Position numbers and translations under genes: made by a program
Source of the DNA: a virus
Reading direction: 5' to 3' (one strand)
IMG/VR virus record: IMGVR_UViG_3300026097_000111
Span: 1-22,878 of that record
Length of the DNA stretch: 22,878 nt
In this document: piece after piece, positions 6,706 to 18,454 of the stretch
Position numbering within the stretch: the stretch's first letter is position 1
How the letters are laid out: every line of letters starts with the position of its first letter
Notes under the pieces: model-generated
What the model saw: the letters and a program-made list of their open reading frames with translations, nothing else
Databases searched by the model: none
What the model was told of the DNA's origin: nothing

Positions 6706-7893
6706 CTAGAACGCCAGCGGGTTATCGTCTAGTTTACCGCGCACGCCATCGTCAAGAATAAAGAAAGCGCGGGTCTCGCGGCGCTGAAACGAAAGGCCAA
6801 TTTCCCACGCACCGCCAACGGTCACCTGATGCGAAATGCCCTGAACAAGCAGCGCGTTCGAAAACAAGCTGCGACCCGGCGGCGTAAACTCAACATCGCA
6901 AATGTCCGCAAGCTCAAATGACGCCACCTTATTCGCGTCGGACTGTGACAGCCGTTCAAGGTTGACGGTAAGCGCATCGACTCGCGTTGCTGGCTCCTCA
7001 AACTGCGTCAGCAGATACTGGAGAAGGTCTTCCAGCGTAACAGGCGACAAAAGCAGAACGGTTCCGACGTCCAAAGTTCGGATAGAAAACTCCCCCTGAG
7101 AAGTCGCGTTATCGGCCGTCTTGCTCGTTCCGTCGGCCAACGCGCCGGTTACCTTGTTGAACAGGCTGCGTGCTCCGGAAAACCGTTCAACCCGTTCGTA
7201 AGGGATGCCGGTGCCATCGTCAGAAAACTTAGTACCAGCAATCGGATTGTCCAGAGCCGTGTGACGGTTCAGAAAAGTCAGCGTGCCGTCTCTGTCTACA
7301 AAGAAATAGCCCTGTTCGGACTGCTCAATCTGCCTCATGTATTGAAGTGCGTTCCCCGTCGCTGTTCCAGCAGCCAACACCGAAATGCCCGTGTCAACCG
7401 AAGTTTCCGACGGCCAAGACACTCCCGCATTTCCAAGGGTCGTATTGATCCGTGCGCCTGAATCCTCAATCGAAACTGTCTCATCCACGATTTGCTGGTT
7501 GGCGAGCAGCGCGAAACCATCCACGCAGGAAACGAGCGCTTCAGCATCACCACTTAGGGAGTATCCGAGCGTCACGTCTTCGATAAAGCCGGTGAATACT
7601 TTGGGGCCAACCCATGTCAATGTCGGGTCAAGTTCGTCCCATGCACCTGTCTGTTCCGACCATGATTCATACAGGCCGGTTCCGACATAAATGACAACGC
7701 GATCGCGGAGGCGTAGTTCGTCTCCGGCAGGGTCAAACTCGCCGTCAAGGTTGCGAAGGTTGATGCTGGCCCGTCCCGTTTGGAACGGTTCCGTCTCGTC
7801 CGTGCGTCCGCGCGTGATGGAAAGTGAGGTGGCGTAGTCGGACAGGTCTTCGAACCCGGAGCCGCGGTCAATAAGTACCTGAACGTCAGCCAT
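6706..7893 (-). CDS. Minor tail protein, hub/baseplate-like
   Basis: A 395-residue protein of the type annotated as minor tail protein in actinophages. It opens with a beta segment (VQVLIDRGSGFEDLSDYATSLS), has an ITRGRTDET...GRASINLRNLDGEFDP region (about residues 26-55), and an FTGFIEDV stretch typical of hub domains that describe a local coordinate frame. The C-terminal third, with QVTVGGAWEIGLSFQRRE, resembles tail-associated hub proteins. It probably forms the tail tip to which the fibres attach. It is the only protein of this class between the tape measure and the lysis genes, so separate Dit-like and Tal-like proteins are not apparent. Start at ATG 7893 with an 8-nt overlap with the preceding small gene. 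Confidence 0.85.
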   Translation of the reverse strand: MADVQVLIDRGSGFEDLSDYATSLSITRGRTDETEPFQTGRASINLRNLDGEFDPAGDELRLRDRVVIYVGTGLYESWSEQTGAWDELDPTLTWVGPKVFTGFIEDVTLGYSLSGDAEALVSCVDGFALLANQQIVDETVSIEDSGARINTTLGNAGVSWPSETSVDTGISVLAAGTATGNALQYMRQIEQSEQGYFFVDRDGTLTFLNRHTALDNPIAGTKFSDDGTGIPYERVERFSGARSLFNKVTGALADGTSKTADNATSQGEFSIRTLDVGTVLLLSPVTLEDLLQYLLTQFEEPATRVDALTVNLERLSQSDANKVASFELADICDVEFTPPGRSLFSNALLVQGISHQVTVGGAWEIGLSFQRRETRAFFILDDGVRGKLDDNPLAF

Positions 7894-8103: not shown

Positions 8104-8880
8104 TCAGACGAAACAGTCAATAATGACGATGCCGTTCGCGCCCGCAGCGCCATCAGAAGCAGCAGTAGAGTCACCGATTCCGTGTCCGTTCGCACCGCCG
8201 CCATAAAGAAGTCCACTCTGAGGGTTGTCGCCACGCCCACCTTCTCTAGAGCCGCTGAAAAGACTCGCTCCGCCAAAACCTCCCAAAACTCGCGTATCTG
8301 AGAGCGTCAGCGCGACCCCGCCGCCGCCGTCGCCACCGGCGATTACAAGGTCGCCGGTACCCGTAGTTCCTCCAGCCTCTCCGGGAGCGGTAAAAATGGG
8401 GTCCGATAGAACTCGAATGCCGCCGCCACCTCCATTAGCAGTCACGGTCGCACCGAATGACGACGCTCCACCAGATGAACCGTTACCGCTTGAACCTGCT
8501 GCGCCACCGGAGCCGCGAGTGACGGTCACACTCGAGGCAAGACCGGCGATGTCCGTGATGAACGATTCGGCATAAGCACCAGCGCCCCCACCTCCGGATA
8601 CGGCGGCTTCGGTCGCTCCAGTCGCAGGAAGACCAGCCCCACCTCCACCACCAGCGACCATCCGCACCCGGATAGCGCGCAGTCCGATGTCGCCCGTCCC
8701 CAACGGGTCAGCCTTCGCAAAGGAACCCGACGACGTGTAATACCGCGTACCCGCATAGCGGTATCCGGCAGCCACCGTGCTGTCAATAGCTGACCCCAAC
8801 GAACGGATAGCCGCAGCACCCTGCGACACCGCATCCGAATCATCAGGAGTAGGCCACGAAAAGTTCGGAGTAACCGCCAT
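8104..8880 (-). CDS. Glycine-rich tail fibre protein (paralogue B)
   Basis: A 258-residue protein built like the fibre at 5900-6697. Residues 1-40 hold the FSWPTPDDSDAVSQGAAAIR segment that is widespread at the N-termini of actinophage fibres and spikes. Residues 42-75 carry the AGYRYAGTRYYTSSGSFAKADPLG stretch corresponding to NGYRFVARRFFDSAGTATFTKSDPMG in paralogue A. From about residue 78 the protein is glycine-rich with GGGGG runs and ends GANGIVIIDCFV. The two proteins look like duplicated adhesins whose distal parts have diverged, as expected for host-range variation. ATG at 8880 is preceded by GAGGTGA. It follows the 100-residue protein gene by 31 nt. Confidence 0.82.
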   Translation of the reverse strand: MAVTPNFSWPTPDDSDAVSQGAAAIRSLGSAIDSTVAAGYRYAGTRYYTSSGSFAKADPLGTGDIGLRAIRVRMVAGGGGGAGLPATGATEAAVSGGGGAGAYAESFITDIAGLASSVTVTRGSGGAAGSSGNGSSGGASSFGATVTANGGGGGIRVLSDPIFTAPGEAGGTTGTGDLVIAGGDGGGGVALTLSDTRVLGGFGGASLFSGSREGGRGDNPQSGLLYGGGANGHGIGDSTAASDGAAGANGIVIIDCFV

Positions 8881-8911: not shown

Positions 8912-9214
8912 TCAGACAGCATCGGCCAGCGACTCCTCAACAGCGAGGATCGCCGCCGCCTTCGCACGCTCAACCTTCTCCGTCTTAATGCGGTGACGGG
9001 TCTCGTCCGCGAACCACAGCGCGGACACCTCGTCGACACGGTCGTCGGGGACGTCCTCGACGGCGGCGTGCTGGTTCTTCGGCTTGCGCCACTTGGCGAG
9101 GTCGTCGGGCCACTCCTGCGGGAGTGAGTCGAGGACGGCGGTGAGGACGGCGATGTTGTGGTCGTACTGGGCGACCTCTTCGCGTCGTGCTTCGAGGGGT
9201 GTCTTCTCTTCCAT
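8912..9214 (-). CDS. Conserved small phage protein, tail region
   Basis: A 100-residue, charged, mainly helical protein beginning MEEKTPLEARREEVAQYDHNI and ending in a helix KVERAKAAAILA. Similar small proteins occur in the tail-fibre region of other actinophages, as far as I recall, without an assigned function. No motif, signal peptide or membrane segment is seen. The start is an ATG with AAGGAG 6 nt upstream, placed 23 nt after the stop of the propeller gene. It could be a chaperone or linker for the fibre proteins encoded on each side, but nothing in the sequence shows that. Confidence 0.75.
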   Translation of the reverse strand: MEEKTPLEARREEVAQYDHNIAVLTAVLDSLPQEWPDDLAKWRKPKNQHAAVEDVPDDRVDEVSALWFADETRHRIKTEKVERAKAAAILAVEESLADAV

Positions 9215-9237: not shown

Positions 9238-10269
9238 TTATGCTGTCGTGAAATCTACGCCTCTCGCCAAACCAGCAAGGGGAGTAGATGGGTCTGCGTA
9301 CTTTGCGCCGAAACCGGGTGACCAAGAATAAGCAGATAGGCCGATGCCGCCGTCGTAGGTTGCCGCGACCGACGAGTCAGCCGCAGAAAATGCCACCCTC
9401 GCGCCGTTTGCCGGAATGGCCGGAGACGGGTCGGCGTACTTGGCACCAAATCCGGGACCCCACTCAAAACTTGTAAGATAAGGGGCACGGTCATGTGCCG
9501 CGATAACTTCCGTTCCCGTCAAGGACCAAGCGCAATCATTGACTTCGTCGCTGATGCCTCCCGGCGGGTCCGAGTACTTTGTTCCAAAACCGCCCGACCA
9601 AGCATACGCCGCCAAATACGGCGAAAGGTTCAACCCCAAAAGAAGGTCTGCCCCTGACGGAGAAAAGGCAGCAGCGTAACAAGGCCTCGTTATTGGAGCA
9701 GCCGCATCTGCGTACTTCGCCCCAAAACCGGAAGACCACGAGTAAACCGAAACGTAAGGTGGAGTCGAGTATCCAAGAGCGATGTCCGCGCCCGAAGGGG
9801 AAAACGAAATACCGCGGGCGCTGCTTCCTATTGCCGGAGATGGGTCAGCGTACTTTGTGCCAAACCCAGAAGACCATGCGTAAGCAAAAACATGAGGCGC
9901 TCCTCCGTAAGTAGCGACGACTATGTCGTCACCGGAGGGGGACCACTGCAAACGTTCGCCCACATTGGGCGGCGCAGAGGCAGGGGCCGCATACCTAGCA
10001 CCGAAGCCCGGACCCCACGGGTAGACCGAAAAATAAGAACCGTTAAGGTGGGTCGCCGCTACGTCTGCGTTAGATGGAGAAAACTTAACGTCGAAACTAG
10101 TGCCGGGAAGTCCGGGAAATGGGTCTGCGTACTTTGCGCCAAAACCGGGTGACCAAGAATAAGCAGATAGGCGAGTACCGAACCCGTGAGAAACAGCAAC
10201 GGCCGCCCCACCCCCGCCGCTACCAACCGGGAACAGGCGGGTCAGCGCAAGACTCAGACCGAGCCGCAT
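9238..10269 (-). CDS. Seven-bladed beta-propeller repeat protein (putative spike or adhesin)
   Basis: A 343-residue protein made of a 46-47-residue repeat with consensus Y-x-W-x-x-GFG-x-KYADP followed by FSPSGADI. Six full copies and a seventh half-copy at the C-terminus can be counted from about residue 34. An N-terminal strand (AVAVSHGFGTR) would complete the seventh blade, the 'velcro' closure of WD40-like propellers. The first 20 residues include a hydrophobic stretch (LGLSLALTRLFPV) and a Gly run that could be a hinge or anchor. No catalytic residues are visible; propellers of this kind bind partners or glycans. It overlaps the spike-base-like gene by one base (TGATG), so the two may form one appendage. 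Receptor binding is inferred. Confidence 0.88.
   Translation of the reverse strand: MRLGLSLALTRLFPVGSGGGGAAVAVSHGFGTRLSAYSWSPGFGAKYADPFPGLPGTSFDVKFSPSNADVAATHLNGSYFSVYPWGPGFGARYAAPASAPPNVGERLQWSPSGDDIVVATYGGAPHVFAYAWSSGFGTKYADPSPAIGSSARGISFSPSGADIALGYSTPPYVSVYSWSSGFGAKYADAAAPITRPCYAAAFSPSGADLLLGLNLSPYLAAYAWSGGFGTKYSDPPGGISDEVNDCAWSLTGTEVIAAHDRAPYLTSFEWGPGFGAKYADPSPAIPANGARVAFSAADSSVAATYDGGIGLSAYSWSPGFGAKYADPSTPLAGLARGVDFTTA
9288..9341. repeat. 54-bp direct repeat, copy 1 (encodes propeller blade 7)
   Basis: These 54 bp match positions 10119-10172 at 53 of 54 bases, differing only at 9310. They encode the LSAYSWSPGFGAKYADP core of the last blade; the partner encodes the same core of the first blade. 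The other blades share the protein motif but are more diverged in DNA, so the end blades seem to have been duplicated or converted recently. Confidence 0.92.
10119..10172. repeat. 54-bp direct repeat, copy 2 (encodes propeller blade 1)
   Basis: Partner of the repeat at 9288-9341, in the same orientation and 831 bp away. Recombination between the two would remove six blades in frame, since 831 is a multiple of three, and leave a short but open protein. Confidence 0.92.
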
Positions 10270-10532
10270 CAGACCAGCCCGACGAGATCCGTCGCGTCCG
10301 TCGCCGTCCCGATAGCCGCAGCACGCACCGGCAGGAACGAACCATCCGCGACGTTCGTGAACGTCACCTCCCCACCACCGACCGTCTCGACGACAACGCT
10401 GCCACCAGTACCGACGTACAGAGCACGCGCCGCAGTAGACAGGGCACTGCCGTAATCGGCAGTACCGATAGCAAAGGCGTTCTCAGCAGGACCGTCGATG
10501 GTCGGCTGGAACGAAGCGAACGGGTCTGCCAT
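10269..10532 (-). CDS. Spike base protein-like (RcGTA Rcc01079-type)
   Basis: An 87-residue protein with the pattern RALYVGTGGSVVVETVGGGEVTFTNV...LPVRAAAIGTATDATDLVGL. This strongly resembles the family named after Rcc01079 of the Rhodobacter capsulatus gene transfer agent, which forms the base of head spikes there. The start MADPF is also typical. The protein should be an all-beta oligomeric base carrying a larger spike. The next gene, overlapping by one base, is the propeller protein, consistent with a base-plus-tip pair; in the gene transfer agent the base is also followed by its fibre gene. Whether the appendage sits on head or tail in this phage cannot be told. AAGGAG precedes the ATG. 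Confidence 0.8.
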   Translation of the reverse strand: MADPFASFQPTIDGPAENAFAIGTADYGSALSTAARALYVGTGGSVVVETVGGGEVTFTNVADGSFLPVRAAAIGTATDATDLVGLV

Positions 10533-10534
10533 TG

Positions 10535-10681
10535 CTACTCCTTTGAGCGGCTTTTATGCAGGTTATCGGCCTGATCAAGCGGCTCGCTGGCGAGAGTGTA
10601 GCGGTCAATAATACCCATCGCAGTAATCGTCGCCCAAAATCGTCTTACACAACGGCGAATGGGCTCCGAAATCGCCATCAT
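10535..10681 (-). CDS. 48-residue protein following the tape measure
   Basis: A small open frame with two ATG codons at 10681 and 10678; the first shares one base with the tape measure TGA. It encodes MMAISEPIRRCVRRFWATI, then a polar C-terminal half ending SRSKE. Its last codons carry the AAGGAG of the spike-base gene, which starts 2 nt after its TAG. The N-terminal basic-hydrophobic helix could be amphipathic. No family is recognised. Without this gene the operon would have an isolated 148-nt gap, so I consider it likely real. The overlapping frame 10605-10841 lies mostly inside the tape measure and is a shadow. Confidence 0.62.
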   Translation of the reverse strand: MMAISEPIRRCVRRFWATITAMGIIDRYTLASEPLDQADNLHKSRSKE

Positions 10682-13437
10682 CACACAAAATCTCCAGATC
10701 CAAGACGTACATAGCCGCCAAGAGGACCGTTCGCCCGCGTAAACCGACGGATAGCTTCAACAACAGCCTGCGGATCAGCAGAAGTAACCGTGACGTTGAC
10801 GTTGGTGGGAGCAGGGGCAACCTGACGTTCCCGTTCGGCACGCTGTGCTGCGGCCATCTCAGCGAACCTACGAGCCTCGTTCGCCGCCATCTGGGAGTTC
10901 ACCCCGACAGACGCCTGAATAATCCCAGCAGACTCGTTGATGCCCTTGGACATGCCCTCCATCATGTCCTGCCCGATGTTCTCGAACAGCTTGGATGGGG
11001 AGGAGATACCGAGGAAGTTTTTGGTCGCGTTCCAAGCGTTCCGGGCCGCGTCGACGAGGGAATCCTTCAGGGCGGACGCTTTGCTCTTAATTCCGTCAAC
11101 CATTCCGTCGATGATGGACTTGCCCCACGCTCGAAAACTGTCAACCTTTCCGGCGAACCAGACGGCAAGTTCCATGAAACGGTCGTTGAACCACCTGACC
11201 ACGTTGTTCTTGAACCAAGTGTCGAACTTGCGGATTCCTTGGAACACGAACTCTACGAGCGCTTCACCGATGTTCTCGAACTCGCGGTCCTGCGTGTTGA
11301 ACCAGTTTCGGAACCGGACGATGAAGATGGTGATTGCGGCGACGATTGCGGCGATGAGGAGGGCGGGCCAGCCGAAGATTGCGGTGATGAACCCTCCGAC
11401 GACCTTCAGGAGGGCTTTCGCGCCGACCTTCAGGAGTGCCATGATTGCCGTGCGAATCGTCGCTCCGGCGACCCCAGCGAACCGGAACGCCCACCGTCGA
11501 AACGCCCCACGGACGGAAATCAGGAGAGTCTGGAACAGCGGTCGGAGGGCGGTCGCTACTGACGCGAACGCGGTGCGGAACGCGGTGGCGATACCCGACA
11601 GGATGATCCGGCCGAGGGATGCGATACCGATAGCGACGAGCTGGATGGCGGTCCAGATGGCCTTCAGGAGCCCCTTGGCGAGGAACGGGACGAGACGGGT
11701 GAAGAACGCCCCTCCGAGACGCTTGAACCCGGCGAACAGGGGGCGGAGGAGGAACCGGATTGGCGCTCCGATGATGGGGATGCGGGACACGATCAGCGCT
11801 GCGAACAGGCCGTTCAGGAGGCTGTCGCTGAAGATGCTGCTGATGGTGCTGGTGCCTTGGTCGGCCTCGTTTCGGGCCGTGGCCGGGTCGCTGAACATGC
11901 CCTTGAAGAACCCGACGAGGAAGTCAACGGCAAACGCGCCGACCGTTATGCCGATAGCGCCCCAGTCCTGCGACTTGGCCCATTCGGCGAGCGGTTCCGT
12001 AATGTCCCCGGCGGCCTCGAAAGCGCTGCGGAACGTGTTGGCGATGAACTCGCCGAGCAGCCTTCCGGCCTCCTCTGGGTCGCCCTCGTCAAGCGCGGCG
12101 CGGAAGTCCGGCGCAAACTTGCGGAAACGCTCCACAAGCGCCTCCAGTTCGCCAAGGCCGATAGCGCCAAACTCTTGCAGGCTTTCCCGAAACTCGTTGA
12201 GCGGCTCACGCAGGTTTTCGTCGAAGAACGTCTTGAACTCCCCGAACTTCGTAATTGAACGGTTGACGAACTCCTCAACTTTGGGGATAGCGCGCTCGAC
12301 GAAATCCTCGATGGCGGGGAGCTGGCCTTGGAACCACTCGACAAACCGGCCGAGCGGCCCGGCGAGCGCCTCACCAATCGTGATGCCGATGTCGGCGAAA
12401 CCGGACTGAAGAATGTCGAGTTGCGCGGAGAACGACTGCAACTGCTTGTCGGCAACCTCGTCGGTAACGCCGCCCATCTCGCGCAGGGCGTCTTCGTACT
12501 CCCGAATCGCATCCCCACCGCCGAGGAGCTGTCGGATGTTGTTACCAACGGAACGGGTCAGTCCGAGCTGGTCGAGAGTGACGGCCTGCTGGGCGTCGGA
12601 CATCGGGCCGAGGAGGTCGGTGAACTCGTCCACCACGTCGGCCATGTTCCGAAGGTTCCCCTCCGAATCCAGAACATTAATGCCGAGCTTCTCGAAGTCG
12701 TCCTGATTCTTTCCGGCCGCACGGGTCACGTCTCGGAGGACGATGTTCAGCGCCTCACCGGCCGTCGCACCCTTGACACCCTGATCGGCGAAGAACGCAA
12801 GGACCGCCGCACCCTCCTCAACGTCCTTCCCGAGGACTCGGAGTGCGGCACCGGCCTTGTTCGTCAGCGCCTCAGAGAACTCCTCTGCCGTCGCGTTAGC
12901 GAGCGTGTTCGCGCCGATGAGCACGTCCGACACTCGCGCCATGTTCGCCATGTTCTCGGCGGTGTCGTCAACGGTCAGACCGAGAGCAGACTGCGCATCC
13001 GTCAGAAGGTCGGTGGCGCGGGCCATGTCGAACGCACCGGCCTGTGCGAACGCCGCAACCTGCGGGAGAGCCTGCAACGACTGTGTGGCATCCAAACCGG
13101 CAGAGGCGAGGAAGAAGAACGACTCTGCGGCCTGCTCGGCGGTGAACCGGGTCGACTTGGCAACGTCGCGGGCCGCCTGCTCCATGTCGGTCCGCATCGT
13201 GTCCGACATGTCGCCCATAATGGCGGTCGAACGGGTCATCGCGTCGTCAAACTTGGCGAACTCGCGGATGGAGAACCCTGCGATAGCACCCGCAGCCGAC
13301 GCGATTACCTTCGCAGCAGCCGCAGCCGCGCCAGCAAGAACACCAAACGCGCTCGCGCCAGTCTTCGTCGCCTTCTGAAGATCGCGGGAATCACCCGCAA
13401 TCATCACCTGAATGACGCTCGTCTTCCTACCCGCCAT
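10681..13437 (-). CDS. Tail tape measure protein
   Basis: A 918-residue tape measure, which spans the tail tube, sets its length and is threaded out at infection. The N-terminal region (about residues 30-400) is the TP901-type core, with Ala-rich helices and the family segments FDDAMTRSTAIMGD, AEQAAESFFFLASAGLDATQ and the phage-typical FADQGVKGATAGEAL. The middle (about residues 540-720) has several hydrophobic helices, including LLIAAIVAAITIFIV, that could be membrane-active. The C-terminal part has LGISSPSKLFENIGQDMMEGMSKGI, a standard tape-measure end motif. At about 1.5 angstrom per residue the tail would be near 138 nm (inference), implying a long flexible siphovirus tail. ATG at 13437 is preceded by GAGGTGA. 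Confidence 0.96.
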   Translation of the reverse strand: MAGRKTSVIQVMIAGDSRDLQKATKTGASAFGVLAGAAAAAAKVIASAAGAIAGFSIREFAKFDDAMTRSTAIMGDMSDTMRTDMEQAARDVAKSTRFTAEQAAESFFFLASAGLDATQSLQALPQVAAFAQAGAFDMARATDLLTDAQSALGLTVDDTAENMANMARVSDVLIGANTLANATAEEFSEALTNKAGAALRVLGKDVEEGAAVLAFFADQGVKGATAGEALNIVLRDVTRAAGKNQDDFEKLGINVLDSEGNLRNMADVVDEFTDLLGPMSDAQQAVTLDQLGLTRSVGNNIRQLLGGGDAIREYEDALREMGGVTDEVADKQLQSFSAQLDILQSGFADIGITIGEALAGPLGRFVEWFQGQLPAIEDFVERAIPKVEEFVNRSITKFGEFKTFFDENLREPLNEFRESLQEFGAIGLGELEALVERFRKFAPDFRAALDEGDPEEAGRLLGEFIANTFRSAFEAAGDITEPLAEWAKSQDWGAIGITVGAFAVDFLVGFFKGMFSDPATARNEADQGTSTISSIFSDSLLNGLFAALIVSRIPIIGAPIRFLLRPLFAGFKRLGGAFFTRLVPFLAKGLLKAIWTAIQLVAIGIASLGRIILSGIATAFRTAFASVATALRPLFQTLLISVRGAFRRWAFRFAGVAGATIRTAIMALLKVGAKALLKVVGGFITAIFGWPALLIAAIVAAITIFIVRFRNWFNTQDREFENIGEALVEFVFQGIRKFDTWFKNNVVRWFNDRFMELAVWFAGKVDSFRAWGKSIIDGMVDGIKSKASALKDSLVDAARNAWNATKNFLGISSPSKLFENIGQDMMEGMSKGINESAGIIQASVGVNSQMAANEARRFAEMAAAQRAERERQVAPAPTNVNVTVTSADPQAVVEAIRRFTRANGPLGGYVRLGSGDFV

Positions 13438-15960: not shown

Positions 15961-16563
15961 CTACAGCCTCGCTGCTGAGATACGACCTGCGTAAATAATC
16001 TGCGCCTTCGGGAAGAAGTCGCGGAGAATGTCCCCACCGCCGGGGAAGTCCTCCACGACGTACACGCCGCCGGGGTTCATCAGCGGGGCGACCAGCCGGA
16101 CCGTGTTCGTAATCGCATCCCGCGTGTGCGGCCCGTCATCCACGAACAGGTCAATTCCCGGCAGGTCGGCAAGGAAGTCCGTGTCGTCGCCGTAGGCGTC
16201 CCACTCGTGCAGGATCGGCTGGTTGTAGGTGAACGCGCCCCGTGACACGAGAGCGGGACGGTTCTCCTTGAACCGCTCAAAATCAAGGTCTAGGCCGACG
16301 ACGATCGCCTCGGGGTACAGGTGGCACCAGAGTGCAAGCGACGCGCCACGGAAAACGCCCAACTCCACGACGAGCTGCGGGTTCAGGTCTTTCAGCAGCG
16401 CAGAGTAGACGTGGGCGTAGTTGTTCCGGTCGGCCGCCATCTTGTCGCCACCGAGGTTCCACGGCGCATGAGGGTTCCTGTCCTTCGGAGAGAAAACTCC
16501 CCGGCCCTTCTCCACGGCAGGAGAGAACTGCGCTTCGAGCGCAATCAGGCGTTCAGCGTCCAT
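15961..16563 (-). CDS. CmcI/class I SAM-dependent methyltransferase-like protein
   Basis: A 200-residue protein with a class I methyltransferase core resembling CmcI (cephalosporin hydroxylase family) and related sugar or natural product methyltransferases. The SAM-binding loop is VVELGVFRGASL (about residues 63-74), followed by an acidic VVGLDLD strand, then LFVDDGPHT and GGVYVVEDF, the DDGxH and VVED pairs typical of the family. It likely modifies a sugar or hydroxyl group. ATG at 16563, with AAAGG about 8 nt upstream, overlaps the second glycosyltransferase by 19 nt; an extension to 16638 is Arg-rich and improbable. It completes a cassette with two glycosyltransferases, so methylation of a glycan is plausible but inferred. 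Confidence 0.83.
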   Translation of the reverse strand: MDAERLIALEAQFSPAVEKGRGVFSPKDRNPHAPWNLGGDKMAADRNNYAHVYSALLKDLNPQLVVELGVFRGASLALWCHLYPEAIVVGLDLDFERFKENRPALVSRGAFTYNQPILHEWDAYGDDTDFLADLPGIDLFVDDGPHTRDAITNTVRLVAPLMNPGGVYVVEDFPGGGDILRDFFPKAQIIYAGRISAARL

Positions 16564-17315
16564 TCCCAAAACCTTTCGCCAGCGCCAGACACGAACTCGG
16601 CAACCTCGTCGGGAGTGTCGCCCGGAACCCTGCCACACAGCTCGTTTGTGACAATCTCACAGCCCGCAATCTGCGCCTCGATCACGGTACGGGGACACGG
16701 GTCGATGATGTTCTTCGGCAGGTGAACGAAATACTTGGCGGTCGCCATCTCTGCCAGCACCGTCTCACGGTCCGCGTCAGTCACCGCACGGAACGGAATG
16801 CCGTTCTCCTCGGCCCACTTGCGCGCCCCGTCAGGGTTCTTATGCCAAATGTTCCGGCCCGCCCACAACGCCACGTTCTCCTTCACGCCGTCTCGTGGGA
16901 TGGCGGACACGTCCATCGGGGCAGGGCAAATCTGGTAGGGCAGGTCGAACCATGTGTGCCAGCGTGCGCACTCGTGGGACGGCCACACCATCAGCCGGGC
17001 GGCACGGAACAGTTCCATCCGCCACGACTGCTGCGGCGACCGGACCCACACGACCGGACGGTACGGCAGCAGCGCCGTCTGCATCGCCGGATTCAGATGC
17101 TCCGTCGCGCCGACAACAATCAGGTCGTACTCGTCAAGGTCCGGCAGGGCCAGCGGAAGATGATGCCGAACAACCTCCACACCCTCCGGAGCCTGCGCAA
17201 GCATCTCCTCCGTCGACATCTCCGCGCCACCGGCGTACAGGCCCGGAAGCAGACCCGTGCGCTTCGGCTGCGGCTCAAACGCGGCGAACTGATGGGAAAG
17301 CCAAAGAAGCCTCAT
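16545..17315 (-). CDS. Glycosyltransferase, GT-B type (second of pair)
   Basis: A 256-residue protein with a GT-B-like layout: an N-terminal Rossmann half opening MRLLWLSHQFAAF, a linker LWAGRNIWHKNPDGARKWAEE, and a C-terminal half with NIIDPCPRTVIEAQIAGCEIVTNEL, the E-x7-E-like nucleotide-sugar binding signature of GT4-like enzymes. It is shorter than the usual 350-400 residues, so domains are compact. ATG at 17315 overlaps the stop of the first glycosyltransferase (ATGA). A longer form from 17342 is unlikely. The donor and acceptor are unknown; DNA, capsid protein or tail protein are all possible, with virion proteins favoured by the location. Confidence 0.82.
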   Translation of the reverse strand: MRLLWLSHQFAAFEPQPKRTGLLPGLYAGGAEMSTEEMLAQAPEGVEVVRHHLPLALPDLDEYDLIVVGATEHLNPAMQTALLPYRPVVWVRSPQQSWRMELFRAARLMVWPSHECARWHTWFDLPYQICPAPMDVSAIPRDGVKENVALWAGRNIWHKNPDGARKWAEENGIPFRAVTDADRETVLAEMATAKYFVHLPKNIIDPCPRTVIEAQIAGCEIVTNELCGRVPGDTPDEVAEFVSGAGERFWEWTLNA

Positions 17316-18454
17316 GCCGCACCGTCCAGCAGCGGCACCCAACCCTCGTCAAACACCCGGTCCGCGTCATACTGCTTCGCAAACTCCACAGCCTGCTCCG
17401 AAACCTTGTACGGACCACGCTCGTACGCCTTCTCCAACGCCTCCACAATAGACGGAACCAGCGGCGTCGAGAACCACTCCAACTGCGTCGGATTCCATTG
17501 CGGCTGAACCTGCGCAATCCACCCGTCGCCGACCAGCTCCGGCTGCGCCGAAAAGTTCGACACAATCACCGGCGTGCCGCACGCCTGCGCCTCCAACACC
17601 GGCAGGCCAAACCCCTCTCCCGCCGAGGCGGACAGGAGCACGTCGGACCGCGAGTAGATGGCGGCCATCGTGTCATCGTCCACACCCATACGGTGCTCGT
17701 ACTGGTCGACAACCCGAATCTTGTCCTGCGAAATGCCACAAGCCTTGATCAGCGCGCCAAGGTCGATGCCATGCCCCGAACCTGTTAGGTCCGTGTGCAG
17801 GTAGAGAACCACATCGTCCTTGTCACGAGCGAAGATGGAGAACGCGAGCAGGTTCTCGCCCCATTGCTTGCGAGACGGGAGAACCCCCTTATTGGCCTGC
17901 GGCATGGTGACGACAAACTTGCCGGGCCACGGGTCAGTCTTGAACTCCGAAGGCTTCCAATGCTTCTCCAAAGCGTGCGGGATGTAAACGTGATGGATGC
18001 CCTTCGCCGACATCGCCGTCGAACCGTGCTTCGACATGGCAATCGGCGTCACGTTCGGCTTCACCAGCCACTTCTCAACGGCCGGAGGCACACCGTTATG
18101 GTCGATAGGCACCCACGACCAAATCGTGTCGATGTCGTCTAGACGCGGGTTCGCCAGCACCCACACGTCACACAGCGTCGCAAGAACAAGCGGAGAGTCG
18201 TCCTGAATCTGCACGTCCCGATAGTGGGACATGATCACGTCCTGCGACCACGAATCGTACCCCTGCGGGTAGACCGGGATTCCGTGCCACTTGCCAATCC
18301 TGTTCAGATGGCCGAAGTTCGCATGAACAGATGTCGAATGGCCGCGCCGCTTCAGACGCCGCAACACCTGAGCAGACTGGGTTCCGTATCCGGTACCCAT
18401 CTCAGGATGGTTAGAGAACCAATGAACTCGGGGACTACGCGCAGGCTTTCCCAC
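17312..18454 (-). CDS. Glycosyltransferase, GT4-like (first of pair)
   Basis: A 380-residue GT-B glycosyltransferase. The N-terminal domain opens with VHWFSNHPEMGTGYGTQSAQVLRRLKRRGH, a typical sugar-acceptor domain start with the GTGYG loop. The C-terminal domain carries SASAGEGFGLPVLEAQACGTPVIVSN (about residues 280-305), the GT4 signature with EGFGLPVLEA as the donor-binding E-x7-E motif. No membrane segment is seen, so it acts in the cytoplasm. It begins with GTG at 18454, 87 nt after the major capsid gene, with a weak GAGAAG upstream and a strong hairpin between. It starts a three-gene cassette inserted between capsid and connector genes. Capsid glycosylation is attractive but unproven. 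Confidence 0.9.
   Translation of the reverse strand: MGKPARSPRVHWFSNHPEMGTGYGTQSAQVLRRLKRRGHSTSVHANFGHLNRIGKWHGIPVYPQGYDSWSQDVIMSHYRDVQIQDDSPLVLATLCDVWVLANPRLDDIDTIWSWVPIDHNGVPPAVEKWLVKPNVTPIAMSKHGSTAMSAKGIHHVYIPHALEKHWKPSEFKTDPWPGKFVVTMPQANKGVLPSRKQWGENLLAFSIFARDKDDVVLYLHTDLTGSGHGIDLGALIKACGISQDKIRVVDQYEHRMGVDDDTMAAIYSRSDVLLSASAGEGFGLPVLEAQACGTPVIVSNFSAQPELVGDGWIAQVQPQWNPTQLEWFSTPLVPSIVEALEKAYERGPYKVSEQAVEFAKQYDADRVFDEGWVPLLDGAA

Follow-up and report, generated by a model that had tools for sequence, protein, structure and literature searches.

How did two blades of a phage propeller gene come to share almost the same DNA, and what might such a gene be used for? The window analysed here is the whole 22,878-bp IMG/VR virus record IMGVR_UViG_3300026097_000111, which encodes portal, capsid, neck, tape measure and tail proteins on the minus strand (Table 1). 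Since the portal found its nearest match (42%) in Pontimonas phage phiPsal1, obtained from a marine Microbacteriaceae strain in culture (PMC6106888), and the gene order also resembles that of this phage, the host is likely an actinobacterium. Methyltransferase- and glycosyltransferase-like genes are located between the capsid and neck genes (15961-18454, minus strand), at the same place as in phiPsal1.

Table 1. Features at the propeller locus of the window
Feature	Position	Strand	Basis
395-aa tail gene, right cassette border	6706..7893	-	Follows tape measure gene in contig L157; phiPsal1 position
Glycine-rich tail-fibre-like gene, cassette member	8104..8880	-	PF21722, PHROG 863
100-aa helical partner gene, possible chaperone	8912..9214	-	Homologue downstream of propeller in relatives; helical model
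Propeller gene, 343 aa, seven WD40-like blades	9238..10269	-	ORF, blade motif spacing, AlphaFold2, Foldseek
Near-identical tract, blade 7 copy (strands c and d)	9288..9341	-	53/54 bases, 16/17 codons, codon shuffles
Near-identical tract, blade 1 copy (strands c and d)	10119..10172	-	53/54 bases, 16/17 codons, codon shuffles
87-aa tail-fibre-like gene, directly upstream of propeller	10269..10532	-	PHROG 12296 tail fiber protein, E 6.8e-15
Tail tape measure gene, left cassette border	10681..13437	-	PF10145, many tape-measure PHROGs

The 343-aa propeller protein, which carries no further domain, consists of seven blades of 46-47 aa with spacings of 46, 47, 46, 46, 46 and 46 aa. AlphaFold2 modelling with 24 relatives predicted a seven-bladed propeller (mean pLDDT, 91; pTM, 0.89), and both the strand order of the model and Foldseek agreed with a closed ring of four-stranded blades of the WD40-like type. 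Among solved structures, Foldseek placed first 7bid, a designer propeller with seven blades from the WRAP lineage; WD40 and lactonase-type propellers came next. A Pfam search at E 0.1 returned no family, WD40 and propeller models included, and a sequence search for solved structures of the propeller found none; the protein is thus classed as a WD40-like beta-propeller by its predicted fold only. In the model, the N-terminus supplies strands b, c and d of blade 1 and the C-terminal strand at residues 335-340 can supply strand a. This strand order supports the initial proposal that blades 1 and 7 lie next to each other in the ring. In two relatives, L034 (3941-4987) and L046 (3971-5014), the ring is seemingly closed elsewhere, as the proteins start at strand d and end after strand c as if permuted.

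The two near-identical tracts lie 831 bp apart, corresponding to 277 codons and therefore in frame. The remaining blades matched the 54-base tract at 63-72%, confirming that the blades in between are more diverged. The tract encodes LSAYSWSPGFGAKYADP, i.e. strands c and d of each blade. Of the 17 residues that the tracts of blades 1 and 7 have in common, 16 were encoded by the same codon, compared with 1-8 of 8-13 in the remaining 20 pairs. The edges were sharp, with codons differing on either side in blades 1 and 7. As the c-d core is the best-conserved part of the blade at the protein level, selection on protein or codons might have kept the tracts alike without recombination. Synonymous codons were shuffled within the gene, keeping the protein and the codon usage, and the best-segment score was taken over all 21 blade pairs. 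None of the 20,000 shuffles was as good as the actual gene (top score of 47 against 51 observed), ruling out protein-level selection as the cause of the identity, and blades 1 and 7 were the sole significant pair in the window gene. Blades with 11-13 identical tract residues also shared just 1-8 codons with either copy, and the first-last pair was unlike in most relatives, so that selection of either kind is hardly credible. As the sharing of synonymous codons far exceeds chance, the identity appears to have been made by a DNA-level copying event, in support of the gene conversion suggested by the sequence-only reading. The best reading is a recent, short-tract gene conversion from blade to blade, of which the direction and pathway are presumptive parts.

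As repeats are a known source of error and the window gene is known from metagenome contigs only, misassembly was also considered, in which short reads of one blade would have been placed in the other. A single base, however, distinguishes the two copies, whose flanks are unrelated, and usual reads are longer than 54 bp. The window and a further IMG/VR contig, L002, were 100% identical over 6,008 bp with both tract copies included, although the independence of L002 is uncertain. An assembly artefact is thus very unlikely. A scan of IMG/VR for variants of the window gene with an exact 52-base pattern returned L002 alone.

Scans of IMG/VR for propeller relatives gave 61, and then at least 585, confirmed stretches, compared with 11 loci in approximately 85,000 bacterial and archaeal genomes, and the family is therefore mainly viral in the collections scanned. 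The contigs L145, L152 and L154 are bacterial genome contigs encoding relatives. Codon-level blade similarity beyond that of the protein was detected in at least one blade pair in 83 of 107 distinct family genes. The copied pairs differed widely among the relatives (5-7, 4-5, 4-7, 5-6, 3-6 and others), and the identity pattern of the window was thus not repeated in distant relatives. Only in the window gene and in L078 did the first-last pair rank highest among the significant pairs, and its median rank in 81 seven-blade relatives was 13 of 21. Given this lack of enrichment, an effect of ring neighbourhood was rejected, and the special role at first given to the first-last pair is unsupported. 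The window appears to be one instance of a general blade-copying habit with no effect of ring closure.

Amplification of single blades is known to have given rise to propellers in every lineage (PMC9218822), and codon-level blade similarity is common in this family as described above. The tract could accordingly be a remnant of amplification, in which single blades were duplicated and, with no later copying, divergence has stayed smallest between blades 1 and 7. We regard this as unlikely, as the one significant pair in the gene is confined to 54 bases and has sharp edges; elsewhere blades 1 and 7 are diverged, and so are the other pairs. Sister genes with a constant blade number, moreover, differ by clusters that copy other blades. 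The strongest case was the sister pair L115/L162 of the 14-blade type (L162 is truncated at its 5' end), in which the downstream flank was approximately 96% identical and the propeller 86%. The differences were clustered, and 83% of the clustered variant sites were matched by the best in-register blade of the own gene, compared with 63% matched by the blades of 15 control genes; 9 of the 17 clusters beat every control. A similar own-gene excess (0.68-0.72 vs 0.52-0.56) was seen for neighbouring paralogues in L068, L132 and L006. Two propeller genes lie side by side in one phage in L006, L068, L132 and L202. Those of L006, L068 and L132 are 80-85% identical in DNA, and copying between paralogues is therefore possible too.

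Own-gene copying was little or absent in the pairs L190/L194, L194/L234, L164/L165 and L016/L020, and hence variation appears to come from elsewhere as well, for instance from exchange with other phages. The genes L016 (816-1853) and L020 (3962-4999) have near-identical ends and strongly diverged middle blades, for which neither gene has a donor; the middle was probably replaced by exchange with another phage.

The sequence-only reading had pointed out that recombination between the two tracts could delete six blades in frame. No such deletion was seen. Among 205 distinct complete ORFs, 154 had seven blades, 34 had fourteen and three had twenty-one (191 in total, 93%), numbers that may be biased since seven- and fourteen-blade genes served as the survey queries. 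Five of the 14 ORFs with other blade numbers look real, namely L276 (6 blades), L203 (5), L169 (12), L179 (13) and L031 (13), and for three of these five there are close sisters of full length. L276 is shorter by exactly 141 bp than the one identical seven-blade gene carried by six contigs from six metagenomes, and it matches these sisters at 99.9% over 3,303 bp starting just before the junction. The junction lies within 32 identical bases, which is short for assembly collapse. In L203, two single blades are missing, with junctions in 62 and 51 identical bases. Two blades are also missing in L169, where the loss spans a 101-bp exact repeat and assembly collapse is possible. As the junctions of L276 and L203 fall in the conserved core that also holds the window tract, recombination in the core seems to remove blades in frame, one or two at once, with the ring number mostly kept. 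The idea of in-frame deletion is thus supported for small losses in relatives and unsupported for the six-blade one. L050 was rejected as a blade-number variant because its contig begins inside the gene, and L282 and L316 because of interrupted frames. The first propeller frame of L282 (561-1649) is broken near 780-800 and open in the near-identical L277-L281. L028, L147, L154 and L284 are probably divergent or fused proteins miscounted by the blade model.

Genomic context was informative on the role of the protein. In the window, the 87-aa gene, the propeller gene, the 100-aa gene and the glycine-rich gene form a cassette between the tape measure gene and the 395-aa gene. In phiPsal1 and L157, the tape measure gene adjoins the 395-aa tail gene and the four-gene cassette is absent; the phiPsal1 counterpart of the 395-aa gene, at the same position, is annotated as a putative tail fiber. 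Because it is absent from these syntenic phages, the propeller would be dispensable and appears to belong to an accessory tail module. The propeller and glycine-rich genes showed the lowest GC3 among the genes measured (0.54-0.56 vs mostly 0.7-0.86), which would suit an acquired, exchangeable cassette. Two glycine-rich tail-fibre-like genes (PF21722; 5900-6697 and 8104-8880, minus strand), both of low GC3, flank the 395-aa gene. Of the nearest phages by the 395-aa gene, L156 stops short of the site and L157 is devoid of the cassette.

The window propeller gene stands beside tail-fibre-like genes, as would be expected of a tail receptor-binding protein. In relatives, several upstream genes matched tail-fibre or other tail families, including collagen-like fibres, and the upstream gene of L106 encodes an Mtd N-terminal domain; not all the upstream neighbours tested had a clear tail-fibre match. 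On the other side, 78 of the 106 distinct propeller genes have a helical gene of approximately 80-130 aa downstream, and a reverse search with the window 100-aa gene found a propeller at all 20 of the 20 loci detected. The 100-aa product was modelled as helical (pLDDT, 95.6) and gave no convincing match in Pfam, PHROG or PDB (best fold match, E 1.0). It has a conserved pattern around YxxNIxxY. From its genomic association the gene appears to encode a dedicated partner of the propeller, perhaps a chaperone.

The variability of the blade was surveyed with 742 in-register blades of 109 genes, setting the invariant first G of GFG as position 0. The most variable positions were -14, -30 and -32 (entropy, 3.2-3.4 bits), followed by -13 (2.5 bits), and these were mapped to the d-a loop and the b-c turn using the strands of the AlphaFold2 model. 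The 54-bp tract sits between the variable loops of the blade, and therefore the copying event in the window would itself have changed no loop. In seven sister pairs, nonsynonymous and synonymous changes numbered 41:7 at the loop positions and 126:228 elsewhere, counts that did not establish a dN/dS above 1. The same regions are known to vary in the HNWD genes (het-d, het-e and het-r) of Podospora anserina, which are WD-repeat recognition genes (PMC1805685, PMC2873952). Diversifying selection in the HNWD propellers acts on four codons of the binding face, numbers 7 and 9 belonging to the d-a loop and numbers 25 and 27 to the b-c turn (PMC1805685). The phage blades have their entropy peaks at -32, -30, -14 and -13 in the corresponding loop and turn, and -32, -30 and -14 are spaced as codons 7, 9 and 25.

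The propeller might instead have a structural or decorating role in the virion, its blades being copied neutrally as a by-product of the repeats. Concerted evolution is expected in any repeat gene, the loop counts fell short of a dN/dS above 1, and a distant propeller relative in Pseudomonas phage ZRG1, cultured on Stutzerimonas stutzeri NCTC10475, is encoded between capsid-region genes and baseplate gene V with no adjoining fibre gene. The dispensability of the propeller, its neighbours such as fibres and the Mtd N-terminal domain, and the focus of variation on two loops of one face all argue against this possibility, which we consider rather improbable. In our judgement, the WD40-like propeller is probably a tail-tip receptor-binding protein that acts with a helical partner and undergoes blade recombination, the window tract being a recent short-tract conversion. 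Gene context and loop pattern are what suggest receptor binding; the protein would be located at the tail tip, and blade variation would change the host range. A route to variable adhesins, put forward at the outset, is plausible in view of the tail-fibre neighbours, the partner gene, the loop hypervariability and the blade losses in relatives; a route by way of the first-last pair or a six-blade deletion is unsupported.

In the proposed mechanism, the c-d core, the most conserved DNA of each blade, would provide the homology for recombination. Copying without length change would homogenise the cores and could move loop variants, and a misaligned crossover in the same cores would remove whole blades in frame. 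The ring geometry would hold the blade number at 7, 14 or 21, and most length changes would therefore be lost, with variation concentrated in the d-a and b-c loops.

These propellers resemble the HNWD genes in several respects. In both, DNA is exchanged between the WD40-like repeats of a gene, with a short stretch ascribed to gene conversion; among the phage sisters, this exchange was strong in L115/L162 and weak or absent in the others. Both also lose repeats by deletion and vary in the d-a loop and the b-c turn, where three of the four positions are spaced alike. The HNWD genes are, in contrast, fungal genes with a NACHT domain, a freely variable repeat number and demonstrated positive selection, whereas the phage propellers are tail-module genes with the blade number held at 7, 14 or 21. 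The window gene, a phage gene with no NACHT domain, was thus rejected as a member of the HNWD family proper, and HNWD is used as a working parallel with no claim of membership. The WRAP lineage (7bid, 7bie) shares the fold and an internal DNA-level similarity of blades, but there the similarity is explained by amplification, while the window has a single short tract in otherwise diverged blades (PMC9218822). The text of that study mentions neither phage, recombination nor gene conversion. The 'wD40 repeat protein' of Caudoviricetes sp. ctYwJ313 (MW202701), a podovirus, is a member of this sequence family (41% across 91% of the query) and forms a double propeller of 14 blades; its annotation gives no function. 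An annotated tail assembly chaperone is encoded two genes downstream of this propeller. Mtd of the retroelement phages is alike in having a fibre gene beside an accessory tip gene, a conserved scaffold and variable loops, with an unrelated fold. The same arrangement is known for gp38 of the T-even phages, whose fold is also unrelated to the propeller. As to a template repeat (DGR), no other copy of the tract was found in the 22.9-kb record, itself probably incomplete.

It is already known that exchange of WD40 blades generates recognition diversity in fungi. The same pattern appears here in a widespread phage family (at least 585 stretches), of which the window member is matched by no Pfam model, often beside tail-fibre genes and with matching loop positions. 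We give about even chances to the broader view that this large environmental family diversifies host recognition by intragenic blade recombination, in which the cores would be the recombination sites and the top-face loops the variable cargo. If true, blade recombination would join retroelement mutagenesis and gene inversion as a further route, in parallel to the fungal HNWD genes. It can now be tested whether the shuffling of propeller blades lets phages vary their recognition of hosts, and one gene is available for comparison in natural forms with six and with seven blades. The propeller is probably used to grip the host, as judged from its sequence and context, and blade copying together with the occasional clean loss of a blade is a plausible way for phages to vary that grip.
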